This document shows positions 8,859-15,295 of a stretch of 64,000 nt of DNA, piece by piece. Positions within the stretch are counted from its first letter, which is position 1. Each line of letters starts with the position of its first letter. The notes under the pieces were generated by a model, which saw only the letters and a list, made by a program, of their open reading frames with translations, had not been told where the DNA came from and made no database searches. Origin of the DNA: Aliarcobacter thereius LMG 24486. Lineage in GTDB: Bacteria > Campylobacterota > Campylobacteria > Campylobacterales > Arcobacteraceae. The position numbers and the translations under genes were made by a program. The stretch spans positions 1,240,001 to 1,304,000 of the forward strand of contig NZ_CP035926.1 in NCBI RefSeq assembly GCF_004214815.1, in the 5' to 3' direction.

Positions 8859-8872
8859 TAGGACGACCTATC
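8857..8872 (+). repeat. attL: orphan half of the guanidine-II hairpin
   Basis: The sequence reads GCTAGG-ACGA-CCTATC: the ACGA loop and inner pairs of a mini-ykkC hairpin, but the outer pair is broken on the 3' side. No second ACGR hairpin and no transporter gene follow. The intact partner is at 15255-15270 (GTTAGG-ACGA-CCTAGC). The left arm here with the right arm there gives a perfect GCTAGG/CCTAGC stem, which indicates strand exchange in the core. Confidence 0.8.
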
Positions 8873-8930
8873 CTATTAAATAAGTAGCTTAAAGCCCTAC
8901 CCTATGGGATTGTAGCAGTTTTATAGATTA

Positions 8931-8963
8931 CCTTTACCCATAAGCTTACCCATAAGCAAAATT
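8931..8963 (+). repeat. left arm-type integrase sites
   Basis: Two TTACCCATAA motifs (8934-8943 and 8946-8955) are spaced by 12 bases, about one helical turn, within a 33-base block repeated at 15117-15149 with two mismatches. Position near the end and matching pairs at both ends fit binding sites of the integrase N-terminal domain. Confidence 0.6.
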
Positions 8964-9450: not shown

Positions 9451-9753
9451 TTATATTTTTCTTTTAATTCCAACTTTTTTATAAAAGCTATTAATTTCTT
9501 TTTTCGTATATTCCAACTCTTGAAGATTATCACTCATTAAAGCTTTTGATATTTTTATTGCTTCACTAAGTAGGATATTTTTTATATCTTCACTTACTGT
9601 TATTTCGTTTCTATGTATCAAGGTATTTTGTAGCAAGATTGTAGAACTGTAACTTATAAGATAGATTTCACTTAATAGTTTTGCTGTTTGTTTTGTTTGT
9701 ATCGTATCAAGTGGCTTAATGCTCTTTAGCCGTTCCAACTGTTTAAGCTTCAT
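9451..9753 (-). CDS. small element protein of unknown function (100 aa)
   Basis: I do not recognise this family. It is mainly helical and basic, with no membrane segment. Its N-terminus LKSIKPLDTIQTKQTAKLL resembles a segment in the 103-aa protein encoded at 10152-10463 (LKEIKPLDKVATNNTLQQA), so the two may be distant paralogues. It overlaps the upstream HTH gene by 11 bases and is the last gene of a minus-strand operon in the integrative element. A role in replication, copy control or interference with a helper is possible but cannot be chosen from sequence. Confidence 0.6.
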   Translation of the reverse strand: MKLKQLERLKSIKPLDTIQTKQTAKLLSEIYLISYSSTILLQNTLIHRNEITVSEDIKNILLSEAIKISKALMSDNLQELEYTKKEINSFYKKVGIKRKI

Positions 9754-10162
9754 TTAGTGTTAGTTCCAAATTTTCAACCATTCCAAACTCATTTTTATTT
9801 GTAATATAAGCTTTTGTTTTAAATCTTTTTTCTATACTCTCTATTTGTGAATAGGTATGCTGTTGCAACTGTATCAAATCTTTTAATGGAGTTTCTAACA
9901 AATCAGCTTCAAGGATTGCATTATCTATCTTATCAAGTTGTTGTAATAGAGTTTCATATCTTTTTGCAACTGTATTTGAATATTGCTTTTTAATTTCTAC
10001 CATTGCTAAAAACTGCAGCTCTTTAATATCATCTTCAAATAGTTTTGACCACTGTATCAAAGTTACTTTAGATACTTTTAGCTCTTTTGCTATTTTATCG
10101 AATGATATTCCATCACTTCTTAATAATATAAACTTTGTTTGTGTTGGGGTTTTATTTTCCAT
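9743..10162 (-). CDS. helix-turn-helix protein, terminase-small-like (139 aa)
   Basis: The N-terminal 45 residues form a helix-turn-helix of the type found in phage terminase small subunits and transposase regulators (ISFDKIAKELKVSKVTLIQWS). It is followed by a long alpha-helical region with heptad-like spacing (about residues 50-120). This layout would suit a DNA-recognition and oligomerisation role. In phage satellites a small terminase subunit redirects packaging, but nothing else here proves that. It overlaps both neighbours by 11 bases, so the three genes are translationally linked. Confidence 0.6.
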   Translation of the reverse strand: MENKTPTQTKFILLRSDGISFDKIAKELKVSKVTLIQWSKLFEDDIKELQFLAMVEIKKQYSNTVAKRYETLLQQLDKIDNAILEADLLETPLKDLIQLQQHTYSQIESIEKRFKTKAYITNKNEFGMVENLELTLNEA

Positions 10163-10463
10163 TCTTTACCTCTTCCAAAATATCATCATAATATTTATTT
10201 AGTGTAACAAATGCAATTCCAGTTGCTTTATTTACTTTGTACTTATTAGGGCTTATATCCTTGCTTAAAAGCTCTTTGATAGTTTCCCTAATTAATTGCT
10301 TAACTTTTTGTGTTTTTATCTCTCTTGCTTGTTGCAGTGTGTTATTTGTTGCAACTTTATCAAGTGGCTTGATTTCTTTTAATTCATTATAAATGGATTT
10401 ACTTCTATTTTCCATCAAATCAACCAGTTTATAAAATAAATCATCTCTTATCTCTATAATCAT
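10152..10463 (-). CDS. small element protein of unknown function (103 aa)
   Basis: No family recognised. The protein is highly charged and helical. Residues about 25-50 (NELKEIKPLDKVATNNTLQQ) match the start of the 100-aa protein at 9451-9753. The C-terminal part, with NKYKVNKATGIAFVTLNKYYDD, looks like a small DNA-binding fold and could be a helix-turn-helix. Its ATG at 10463 lies directly after the stop of a 22-residue membrane peptide gene (TAA followed by ATG), which suggests coupling. Confidence 0.55.
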   Translation of the reverse strand: MIIEIRDDLFYKLVDLMENRSKSIYNELKEIKPLDKVATNNTLQQAREIKTQKVKQLIRETIKELLSKDISPNKYKVNKATGIAFVTLNKYYDDILEEVKNGK

Positions 10464-11629: not shown

Positions 11630-12334
11630 TTACCCTTTGAAATGTAATTTTAATTTATCTAAATTTTGCACTAAGTAGCTACCATTAGCAAGATTAATAA
11701 TCTCTATAAACTCGCTTATAGGTAAAGCTAAACAATTAAAGTTAGGTATTGAGATAGTGGCTTCAATTCTCCATAATGTACCATTCAAGCTATTCTTTAA
11801 AGCCTTATTGTATATGCAAATTCTATCCATTGATAAAATGTTTGTATCGTTAATATAAAAGGTATTCCCTTGCTTTTTATAATCTGTTAGATAATAGAAT
11901 TGCTTTAAAGTTGCAATATCTGGAATGGATTTCATATCGAAGCAAACATCAAGATTTAAAAGGTTTCTACCTCTTTTTACTGATGATTGCATAATAGATA
12001 AAATGCTGTTTACTATTTCAACGGGTGGTGGTGCTTTGTGATGTTGATGTAAACCATAAACCACCAAAGTAGATAAATCGTAGTTTTTCTTTTTACTATT
12101 GAAGTAATAAATATTATGGTTCTCTAACTGATGGACTGTTGTAAGCTCTTTAAGTTCATATCTTCTTTTTAACTTTAAAAATAATTGATGATTAGGTCTT
12201 ATTTTGCTCCATCTTCCTAAAGAGTCAAGTTTACTTTTTTTGCTACTTTTTAAAAAATCTATTCTTATGGTATCTATTTCAAAACCAAAATCAAATTGCT
12301 TTAAATAATTTTTTAGCTCTGATAAAATGCTCAA
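11630..12334 (-). CDS. possible replication initiator (Rep) of the element (234 aa)
   Basis: I do not recognise it with certainty. The C-terminal half has the order CIYNKALK ... LWRIEATI, which resembles the Y-x-K / R-x-E motifs of rolling-circle initiators of the Rep_trans and phage RstA type. A His-rich segment (GLHQHHKAPPP) lies in the middle. A replication role fits the presence of an origin-like region and of AlpA and integrase genes in the same element. Two tiny genes follow in the same operon. The 214 bases ahead of it contain an unusual GC-rich block (12425-12446). Confidence 0.4.
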   Translation of the reverse strand: MSILSELKNYLKQFDFGFEIDTIRIDFLKSSKKSKLDSLGRWSKIRPNHQLFLKLKRRYELKELTTVHQLENHNIYYFNSKKKNYDLSTLVVYGLHQHHKAPPPVEIVNSILSIMQSSVKRGRNLLNLDVCFDMKSIPDIATLKQFYYLTDYKKQGNTFYINDTNILSMDRICIYNKALKNSLNGTLWRIEATISIPNFNCLALPISEFIEIINLANGSYLVQNLDKLKLHFKG

Positions 12335-12548
12335 ATTTTTATCCTCGTTTTTGTTAGTTTTTGTAATACTTTTTAGCTATGCATTAAGGGTTATAAAACT
12401 TAAGCTATAAAATCTATACTTAAACCAGCCCCGCCCCCGTAAGGCTTAGAGCTTAGTTTATGGTATTTATTTTCCTTTAGCTATTAGACTACCTTGATAT
12501 TTATAATATCGTGGAAATTTTACAACCTTAAATCACTAAAAAAGTAAC
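12335..12548. other. intergenic region with a GC-rich block upstream of the possible Rep gene
   Basis: No gene seen. In otherwise AT-rich DNA, 12425-12446 is almost purely G/C on both sides of a short CGTAAGG, and AGCC/GGCT arms could form a hairpin. A GC-rich structured patch beside a Rep gene is reminiscent of a rolling-circle origin, but a transcription terminator for the operon ending at 12549 is equally possible. Confidence 0.35.
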
Positions 12549-13067: not shown

Positions 13068-13259
13068 TTAAGCCCCTAACAAAGCTTTTTCAACTTCTAC
13101 AACATCAAAAACAGTTACTCTATCACTTATCTTTTTTGCAGTGATTTTCCCTTGCTTAGCATAAGCCCAAACAGTACTAAGTCCTATTCCTAAATGCAGT
13201 GCTAATTGCTTAGCTCTCATATACTTAGCAGTTTTGTATTCTAAATTTTCTTTTTCCAT
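13068..13259 (-). CDS. AlpA-like helix-turn-helix / excisionase protein
   Basis: A 63-aa protein of the MerR-like AlpA/excisionase type: YMRAKQLALHLGIGLSTVWAYAKQGKI is a typical helix-turn-helix with the following wing (TAKKISDRVTVFDVVEVEKAL). Such proteins activate integrase genes or bend DNA for excision in small integrative elements and satellites. The gene heads a three-gene operon and is separated from the integrase gene by a 508-base region full of inverted repeats, its likely binding region. Confidence 0.75.
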   Translation of the reverse strand: MEKENLEYKTAKYMRAKQLALHLGIGLSTVWAYAKQGKITAKKISDRVTVFDVVEVEKALLGA

Positions 13260-13767
13260 CTTTTTACCTTTTGTAAATAAAGAGATATAAAAATCTCTAA
13301 GGGATTGAATAAAAGATTAAAATGTATCTTTGAGTAACAAAAATATAAATATTATAAAAGCATTTGTTTTATTCATTATATTTTTATTTTTCTTTTAGTA
13401 TAGTAGATTGTTTAAATGACTACTACCATTTAAAAGATTGATACAATTTCAACTTTTAAAAACAATTCTAAGATTTTCTACTTACTACCAATAAGTAGAG
13501 TTTCTTAGATTTTATCTGTATCAATTAGATACATAAATCAAATCATACTGATATAAAGCAAAACTTTATATTTAAATCCAGCATTTTGAGTAATAATTCA
13601 CTTGATAAACTATTTGTGTGAAGTCTTAGAAGATAGATAATATCGTTATTTTGTGACTGTAAAACCCATCATTTTAAACAAACCAACAAAATTCAAGGTT
13701 CACCCATTTTAGCTTTTTAGGTTTGTAAAGTTTGGTTCTAAACTCTTTAAAATGTTAAAGTTTGGTT
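13260..13767. other. gene-free control region of the element
   Basis: No gene is seen in these 508 bases between the integrase and AlpA-like genes. They contain the nested inverted repeats listed at 13411-13533. They also contain a 16-base direct repeat TAAAGTTTGGTTCTAA (13726-13741 and 13756-13771) that runs into the integrase stop region; a related TTAAAGTTTGGTT is at 9231-9243. Confidence 0.5.
13411..13533. repeat. cluster of nested inverted repeats
   Basis: TTTAAATG/CATTTAAA (13411-13418, 13427-13434) forms one stem. A three-tier structure follows: ATTGATACA/TGTATCAAT (13437-13445, 13517-13525), CTAAGA/TCTTAG (13468-13473, 13503-13508) and CTACTTA/TAAGTAG with a seven-base loop (13480s-13490s). 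TGTATC (13517-13522) can instead pair with GATACA (13528-13533). So many perfect arms in 120 bases suggest an origin, a structured RNA or multiple protein sites. Confidence 0.5.
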
Positions 13768-15018
13768 CTAATATTTTTCTAACAAACCAACTATAAAAGC
13801 ACTCCAAAAATCCATCAAAGGTTTTAAATGATTTGTATAATCTGATTTGTTAGTATATGCTTTGATTGTATCTTCTCCAGTGTGATGATCCAGTGCATAC
13901 TCTTTAACTTCAAAGCTAAATTTATTTTCAATATCTAAGGTATTTATCCAACTTCTAAAAGTACCTCTAAAACCGTGAAGTCTGATTTTTTTACCTATTT
14001 TTTCATCATTAAAACCCATCTTTATAAGTGCATTATTTAAAACTTGATAGTCAATATTTTCCCTAATATTAGTAAGCTTTGAAAATACCCATTCACTCTT
14101 TAGGAAGTATTCTTTTTGATTTTCTAATATCTTTATAACCTCATCACTCAAAGGCATTTTAAAATCTGGATAGTTACTATTTTTAGCCTTCATTTCAGCC
14201 CGTGGAATAGTTAGAATTTTATTCTCAAAATCAATATAATCCCATCTTAACTTACTTAAATTTTCAGCCCTTAAAGGAATATGTAAAACCAGCTTTAAAG
14301 CATTTCTTACTGTAAGATTTTTATCATATGAATAAATACTATTTACCAACTCTTTAAAATACTCTTCATTTGTGATTTGAGGGTGGTTTTTGGCTCTTTG
14401 TGGTTTATTCTCTAATATGTGATATTTATCTACATTCGATAAAACATTGCTTTTTAAATAGTTGTGAGATATTGCATAGCTTAAAATATTTTGTAAGTAG
14501 TTAAATAGTTTTTTTGCAGTTGATGGGGCTTCCTTGCTTTTTGCATTTAAAACCTTTTTAATATCATCTATTGTTACATCATTTATATTTTTATCAATAC
14601 CTAAAGGCAAAATAACATCTTTATAAATTCTTTGTTTTTTCCATTCAAATTGATTTAAACCGCTGTTTGATTTTTGGTTCTCTAACCATTCATTAAAAAC
14701 ATTTTGAAGATTACTATTATCTTCTATTACTTGCTTTTTATTAAGCTCTCTTAAATGATGGATAGGATTGATTTTATCATCTATTAATTTTCGATATTCA
14801 GCTCTTTTTTTTCTTGCTTCACTTAAACTTACAGATGGATAATTTTTAAAAGTAGTTTCAAATCTCTTGCTATTTAGCATAAATCTAAAAACCCATATTT
14901 TATAATTGTTTGGAGTTACTAAAAGATATAAACCATCTCCATCATTTAGATAATATTTCTTATCTTTTGGTTTATTTGCCTTTATGGTTTTATCTGTTAA
15001 AATATTAAGTTTTTTCAT
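13768..15018 (-). CDS. tyrosine recombinase, integrase of the riboswitch-targeting element
   Basis: A 416-aa P4-type integrase. The N-terminal arm-binding domain (DUF4102-like; YLNDGDGLYLLVTP ... VSLSEARKKRAEYR) is followed by a core-binding domain and the catalytic domain. The catalytic domain has Arg in HIPLRAENLSKLRW, the box HGFRGTFRSW, His in ALDHHTGEDT and the nucleophile Tyr in TIKAYTN. All catalytic residues are present, so it should be active. The gene lies close to the right end, reads inward, and its presumed arm sites are at both ends of the element. Its target appears to be a riboswitch hairpin instead of a tRNA gene. Confidence 0.92.
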   Translation of the reverse strand: MKKLNILTDKTIKANKPKDKKYYLNDGDGLYLLVTPNNYKIWVFRFMLNSKRFETTFKNYPSVSLSEARKKRAEYRKLIDDKINPIHHLRELNKKQVIEDNSNLQNVFNEWLENQKSNSGLNQFEWKKQRIYKDVILPLGIDKNINDVTIDDIKKVLNAKSKEAPSTAKKLFNYLQNILSYAISHNYLKSNVLSNVDKYHILENKPQRAKNHPQITNEEYFKELVNSIYSYDKNLTVRNALKLVLHIPLRAENLSKLRWDYIDFENKILTIPRAEMKAKNSNYPDFKMPLSDEVIKILENQKEYFLKSEWVFSKLTNIRENIDYQVLNNALIKMGFNDEKIGKKIRLHGFRGTFRSWINTLDIENKFSFEVKEYALDHHTGEDTIKAYTNKSDYTNHLKPLMDFWSAFIVGLLEKY

Positions 15019-15069: not shown

Positions 15070-15149
15070 TTATGGGTATAAAATTTAAAATGCTTGATTT
15101 TTAGTGTTTTTTTATACCTTTACCCATAACTTTACCCATAAGCAAAATT
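15070..15149 (+). repeat. right arm-type integrase sites
   Basis: Contains TTACCCATAA at 15120-15129 and 15132-15141 with the same 12-base spacing as at the left end, and an inverted TTATGGGTA at 15070-15078. The 33-base block 15117-15149 repeats 8931-8963 in direct orientation. It lies in the upstream region of the integrase gene, so binding could also repress that promoter. Confidence 0.6.
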
Positions 15150-15254
15150 GTAACTTATAGTAATACATATTAGATTATGTTGCACTTAATAGCTCTTGAA
15201 ATATCGATTTTATGGGGCTTTGTAGATTATGTAAGATTGTATGAAATTATAAAA

Positions 15255-15295
15255 GTTAGGACGACCTAGCCTCTTTACTTACAGAGGACGACCTC
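15255..15295 (+). ncRNA. guanidine-II (mini-ykkC) riboswitch, regenerated at attR
   Basis: Two short hairpins with ACGA loops: P1 GTTAGG-ACGA-CCTAGC (15255-15270) and P2 GAGG-ACGA-CCTC (15284-15295), joined by a 13-base linker. Eleven bases later is the RBS AAAGGA (15306-15311) and then the gdx start at 15318. ACGR tetraloop pairs are the hallmark of this class, which binds guanidinium across both loops and usually frees the ribosome binding site. The P1 left arm comes from the integrated element (one G-U wobble pair), so the class consensus is preserved after insertion. Confidence 0.88.

Follow-up and report, generated by a model that had tools for sequence, protein, structure and literature searches.

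Two described systems are among those closest to the locus analysed here. The sso1 of ICEBs1 is an intergenic region for which three stem-loops are predicted (PMC4595007), and immunity repressor RNAs are reported for Gram-negative phage-inducible chromosomal islands (PICIs; PMC10111431). Our locus lies in a 64,000-nucleotide stretch of the genome of Aliarcobacter thereius LMG 24486 (the window), where a 508-bp spacer separates the gene for a tyrosine integrase (416 aa; 13768..15018, minus strand) from that for an AlpA/excisionase-like HTH_17 protein (63 aa; 13068..13259, minus strand; HTH_17 E 1e-5, just under the curated cut-off). The spacer contains a cluster of inverted repeats at 13411-13533, and we compared its predicted structure, its setting and its counterparts in related elements with these systems as well as with intrinsic terminators.

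Repeats and predicted folds of the integrase-alpA spacer

The preliminary description of this DNA had placed perfect inverted repeats, three of them nested, between the integrase and AlpA-like genes and had considered them more ordered than chance would produce; position, repeats and excess were all confirmed. Perfect inverted repeats of 9 pairs (13437-13445/13517-13525), 8 pairs (13411-13418/13427-13434, 13429-13436/13453-13460 and 13477-13484/13492-13499), 7 pairs (13467-13473/13503-13509) and 6 pairs (13517-13522/13528-13533) are present, together with a further one of 6 pairs (13411/13460), and inspection of the sequence of 13411-13533 finds the 9-, 7- and 8-pair repeats nested around a single loop. 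The double pairing option claimed for TGTATC at 13517 also exists as sequence, its possible partners being GATACA at 13440-13445 or at 13528-13533. Compared with 500 dinucleotide shuffles of 13411-13533 (123 bp), seven repeats of at least 6 pairs were observed (shuffle mean 3.6; matched by 25 of 500), five of at least 7 pairs (mean 1.1; matched by 1/500) and four of at least 8 pairs (mean 0.3; matched by 0/500), while the longest arm had 9 pairs (mean 7.0; matched by 43 of 500); these shuffle tests and the fold tests below make no correction for the place having been chosen beforehand out of 64 kb.

Folding of the 151 nt at 13400-13550 gave z values of -5.6 (plus strand) and -3.9 (minus strand) as RNA and of -5.1 and -4.8 as DNA, with 0 of 200 shuffles folding as well in each case. 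The dominant structure is HP2 (13464..13512), a long hairpin of two perfect stems (7 + 8 pairs) with a small internal loop and a folding energy of -16.5 kcal/mol on either strand. Its loop on the minus strand is TTGGTAG, and its stem is followed by ATTGTTTTT after base 13467 on the minus strand and by TTTTAT after base 13509 on the plus strand. When the region was split into parts (300 shuffles per part; z for plus/minus), HP2 alone reached -5.7/-5.2, the part to its left -1.9/-0.9, the part to its right -3.7/-1.8, and the region minus HP2 -2.7/-0.7 (3 and 76 of 300 shuffles folding as well). Thus, a single long hairpin accounts for most of the structural excess, and around it the plus strand shows a weaker one.

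Among the smaller structures, HP1 (13517..13533), a small palindrome of the form TGTATC-N5-GATACA, is predicted with a mean pair probability of 0.90/0.85 (plus/minus), and HA (13429..13460), an AT-rich inverted repeat TTTAAAAG/CTTTTAAA, with 0.79/0.75. H0 (13411..13434), likewise an AT-rich inverted repeat and carrying GGTAGT on the minus strand, is in competition with HA for pairing (pairing probability 0.26/0.22). The outer 9-pair inverted repeat (13437..13525) was the alternative pairing on which an RNA switch had been proposed. This proposal found no support, the competing helix having a mean pair probability of only 0.03 (plus) and 0.02 (minus) against 0.90/0.85 for HP1, with which it shares some bases. 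Forcing 13437-13445/13517-13525 to pair costs 1.4 (plus) and 2.7 (minus) kcal/mol in the model; a switch at 13411-13533 would be possible energetically, but is unsupported.

Considering the symmetry of HP2, its place and a look-alike with a T-run in another element (see below), we tentatively favour, at slightly less than even odds, the reading that HP2 acts in the manner of a bidirectional intrinsic terminator with an AT-rich stem, which lies between the alpA operon and the gene for the integrase and insulates alpA. A terminator was absent from the options of the preliminary description and fits better than those. What is observed is a hairpin equally strong on either strand, its location and, in some relatives, hairpins that occupy the corresponding slot; termination itself, the promoter positions and the identity of the ended transcript are inferred. 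On the minus strand, HP2 would halt transcripts from the integrase side ahead of alpA, and on the plus strand it would halt antisense transcripts running toward the gene for the integrase. As for the smaller palindromes, they may serve as operators by the alpA promoter or may have arisen by chance. HP1, HA and H0 are left unexplained by the terminator reading.

HP2 has the stable stem-loop of an intrinsic terminator, as its energy and z values indicate. A strict scan of 13200-13800, for a G+C-containing stem directly followed by a T-run, returned 0 sites; the stem of HP2 is AT-rich and its minus-strand T-run starts five bases past the stem. Since this strict form was looked for and not found, we say that HP2 works like a terminator and do not call it a consensus member. 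Its T-tail scores are 2.1 (minus) and 3.8 (plus), and some 250 nt separate it from the stop codon of the integrase gene (about 280 nt when measured from the HP2 centre). Of the 44 hairpins in the window that reach -11 or lower on each strand, HP2 ranks 5th by the weaker strand; when all local folds are ranked by the stronger strand, it is 15th. These 44 hairpins comprise 28 inside ORFs, 5 in a tRNA cluster and 11 in other intergenic DNA; because 28 of 44 comparable hairpins are inside ORFs, a two-strand hairpin alone is not diagnostic. By our own reading, 7 of the 11 intergenic ones outside the tRNA cluster are no more than 65 nt from a gene 3' end, and HP2 is not among these.

The integrated element, its initiator-like protein and a candidate origin

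The HP2 region is situated inside a 6.4-kb integrated element. Copies of a 12-bp flanking repeat, TAGGACGACCTA, occur on the plus strand at 8859..8870 (left) and 15257..15268 (right), the right copy within a guanidine-II riboswitch match at 15253-15295. At an empty site in the related genome G015 (L178, whose sequence was read), a single guanidine-II-like leader lies between a transporter-like gene, named by eye, and an SMR gene identified by Pfam, and the BLAST coordinates of three further loci (L179, L180 and L181) agree with this empty site. Because the flanks that only this leader separates in L178 are 6.4 kb apart in the window, with TAGGACGACCTA at both ends, the insertion site of the element seems to have been hairpin 1 of a guanidine-II riboswitch that precedes the SMR gene and is rebuilt at the element's right end.

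Doubled ACCCATAAGC-type repeats are also found near both element ends (8929-8963 and 15115-15149); they were considered as attachment repeats and rejected, as the empty site puts them inside the element, and they are possibly integrase arm sites. Of the 18 loci with related integrase genes that were scanned (L039-L048, L111-L114, L119, L120, L124 and L125), 14 have the integrase start no more than about 320 nt from a gene for tRNA or tmRNA; in three more (L044, L048 and L113) the integrase adjoins a stretch that by eye resembles SRP RNA, and in L045 the contig ends. The best relatives of the window's integrase obtained here share about 53% identity with it. Two small minus-strand genes of the element, 9743-10162 and 10152-10463, are common to some related elements, one with a weak HTH match and the other with a sub-threshold small-terminase match (E 0.0057). 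No primase profile was detected among nine element proteins scanned, and no paper on Arcobacter prophages, satellites or genomic islands was found in the open-access library searched.

Upstream of these two genes on the minus strand, the element encodes a 234-aa protein (11630..12334, minus strand) that, judged from its predicted structure (pLDDT 85.7, pTM 0.81), is likely a divergent rolling-circle initiator. The best Foldseek match of this model is the rolling-circle initiator 4cij (E 2.4e-4, prob 1.00, TM 0.42), the model shows the RepDE-type initiator fold (Rep_trans), and inovirus Rep ranks first in a viral structure library (E 5.9e-6). VIA gave Z scores of 8.9 (4cij) and 8.3 (4cwc), a modest lead over the 7.8 of the next fold, TBP; by the tool's own warning, values below 8 may represent a common arrangement. 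The protein matched no Rep profile when Pfam, PHROGs and NCBIfam were searched, and divergent members can escape such libraries. Y160 and Y175, invariant in 20 aligned proteins, are candidate catalytic tyrosines. Counting the genome of the window itself, 12 of 104 family genomes contain relatives of the protein; relatives also occur at 23 genome_contigs loci (partly the same contigs), with titles of Campylobacterota except for one labelled Mollicutes. Scans of viral contigs confirmed no relative.

Given that the element encodes a protein resembling a rolling-circle initiator, the earlier suggestion of a double-strand origin at 13411-13533, nicked by this initiator, was a sensible one. The element has three copies of the hexamer GGTAGT, each on the minus strand (HP2, H0 and a block upstream of the initiator gene), which would fit the suggestion; the 64 kb has six, both strands counted. 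However, the match was spotted after the fact, and across 31 neighbourhoods GGTAGT is found in loops of stems of at least 7 pairs only in the window's own two hairpins; as a common feature, the GGTAGT loop motif was rejected (31 neighbourhoods, 356 hairpins). Moreover, the sequence that relatives have in common next to the initiator gene is not at 13411-13533 but in the non-coding block at 12375..12545 (minus strand), and the spacer itself has no similar DNA beyond noise. We therefore regard a double-strand origin at 13411-13533 as very improbable.

An alignment of this block covers 28 of the 31 neighbourhoods (L050, L144 and L146, with partial or late-starting hits, were excluded, and L130 represents L038, which is the same stretch) and has a mean column identity of 52% with 7 invariant columns. 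The majority consensus, from which individual copies deviate, reads TTTAAGGTTnAAAAAAACACCCCTTACAATA..CAAGGTAGTCTAAG at one end and TTTAAGAATTGAnnTTCTTAATGTA at the other. The middle segment forms a hairpin in many single folds, not all, and RNAalifold on the 28 sequences returned no consensus pairs, so that a structure of the block is not established; Rfam gave no match at the gathering threshold for the window copy. The block at 12375-12545 is a better candidate origin than 13411-13533.

The spacer in related elements and other candidate roles

Hairpins between the integrase and alpA genes were scored in 17 of 19 extracted spacers (L111, of 4.4 kb, and L119, with an opposite-strand ORF, were excluded), and the single best two-strand window was kept per spacer. 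At a cut-off of -13 kcal/mol or lower, a hairpin was found on one or both strands in 7 of 17 spacers, namely that of the window and 6 of 16 relatives (L043, L044, L047, L112, L115 and L118), and on both strands in 5 of 17 (the window, L044, L112, L115 and L118); by this scoring of best windows, 10 of 17 had no hairpin of -13. The hairpin of L118 is 10 nt from alpA and not mid-spacer. In all three long spacers, i.e., those with no ORF of 50 aa and at least 390 nt of non-coding DNA, the hairpin is mid-spacer, at distances to the two genes of about 252/209, 235/236 and 166/161 nt, the alpA start of L043 having been placed by eye.

As to the sequence of the spacer, the whole 508 bp had no DNA match in phage or plasmid collections at E 1e-5 and two other short matches within its own genome, and a 151-bp query had only short matches in other family genomes, at E 1e-4 or weaker (AT-rich noise). 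Rfam at the gathering threshold identified five tRNAs and the guanidine-II riboswitch in the whole window and none at 13411-13533; at E up to 5, 13200-13800 had four matches, all far under gathering scores.

One look-alike of HP2 was found, in an element of Poseidonibacter ostreae (L043/L145) at 8837-8867 of L145, in the same slot and orientation, with an identical TTGGTAG loop, a different stem and then a T-run. The loop had been spotted by eye before being tested; TTGGTAG has 27 copies in 29 loci and forms a hairpin loop with at least 4 pairs only in the window and L043/L145. Two sequences are too few to show any covariation of HP2. A covariance model built from HP2 and its one look-alike (R1) was run with filters that lose weak matches: in 104 family genomes it retrieved only its two source sequences at E <0.16 and a match in 23 of the 104 at E up to 10, and in 348 order genomes only the window itself at E up to 0.05. 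A two-hairpin descriptor (a CTAAT loop, then a TTGGTAG-type loop) matches the window and L145/L043, with one further match at 2000 of L143 that is weak, contains wobble pairs and lies outside the slot. Homology of the first hairpin between the window and L145 is not claimed, because MAFFT aligned both hairpins otherwise.

In the fetched loci, R1 had 12 matches beyond its sources, one being the look-alike's opposite strand. Four of the 12 are directly upstream of alpA (L127 7743-7773, L131 2419-2449, L143 9344-9374 and L147 5061-5091), where by eye the ribosome-binding site, or sequence close to it, is paired in the hairpins. L112 and L118, too, have hairpins immediately upstream of alpA that by eye involve the ribosome-binding site. 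The stems differ among most of these leader hairpins, and the arrangement is not general across 37 alpA leaders.

Besides termination, it is possible, with a probability well below even, that the stem-loop array is either a single-strand origin (sso) or a small regulatory RNA gene in a cargo slot of Campylobacterota elements that carry an integrase, AlpA and a divergent rolling-circle initiator. As an sso of an element replicating by rolling circle, the array would form tandem stem-loops in the displaced single strand, where host RNA polymerase or primase would be recruited to synthesize the second strand. This is attractive because of the initiator-like protein, whose predicted fold is closest to 4cij and 4cwc (and to inovirus Rep in the viral library), and the three stem-loops into which the minus strand folds as single-stranded DNA (z -4.8), a number also predicted for ICEBs1 sso1. 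However, the minus strand without HP2 shows no excess structure (z -0.7), and most scored spacers have no comparable hairpin. We consider an sso unlikely.

With about the same low probability, the slot could hold a small non-coding RNA gene on the minus strand, consisting of a promoter, HP1, and HP2 as its own terminator. The slot carries a variable ORF of at least 97 aa in 14 of 18 other spacers (L039, L040, L041, L044, L045, L047, L048, L111, L112, L113, L116, L117, L118 and L119), whereas in the window no ORF there reaches 50 aa, and in the look-alike of L145 TGCTATAAT comes first, then a small hairpin and then the one with the TTGGTAG loop and its T-run; the immunity repressor RNAs of Gram-negative PICIs mentioned above offer a parallel. 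On the other hand, the filtered searches, which lose weak matches, yielded one look-alike in 104 family genomes and only the window in 348 order genomes, matches to Rfam families in the region all stay below the gathering scores, the window's putative -10 (TATGAT) is weak and was chosen by eye, and the first hairpin is placed otherwise by MAFFT.

The palindromes might also be an operator region bound by AlpA, as had been suggested, or by a different protein that regulates the alpA promoter. Within 205 bp there are four TGTATC/GATACA half sites, and nowhere else in the window is that 6-mer clustered so closely; this hint of AlpA sites is weak because 13 of 498 6-mer classes of similar frequency (TGTATC/GATACA included) form an equally tight cluster at some place in the window. 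In addition, the palindromes near alpA vary between the elements compared, and we judge an operator improbable.

Significance and comparison with described systems

Taken alone, the hairpin probably insulates two transcription units from each other, and a two-way transcription stop that separates two genes within a small integrated mobile element, most likely what HP2 represents, would be ordinary biology. Of greater interest is that the hairpin points to an element with an integrase, AlpA and a rolling-circle initiator-like gene, whose candidate origin is common to relatives across Campylobacterota. Were the array to be an sso, the element would offer a small system for second-strand synthesis in Campylobacterota.

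Compared with a bidirectional intrinsic terminator, HP2 is alike in being a long inverted repeat that is equally strong on both strands, in having T-rich sequence on both sides and in lying between two genes; it differs in its AT-rich stem with an internal loop, the displaced T-run of the minus strand, its failure in the strict scan and its distance from the integrase stop. With ICEBs1 sso1 (PMC4595007), the array has in common three stem-loops in non-coding DNA of an integrated element that encodes an initiator (here a likely one) of the rolling-circle type. The likeness is one of predicted structure and setting, and most of the related spacers scored are without a comparable hairpin. Like the Gram-negative PICIs (PMC10111431), the element has integrase, alpA and replication genes in this order and mostly in one direction. 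Unlike theirs, its replication gene resembles a rolling-circle initiator and not a primase.
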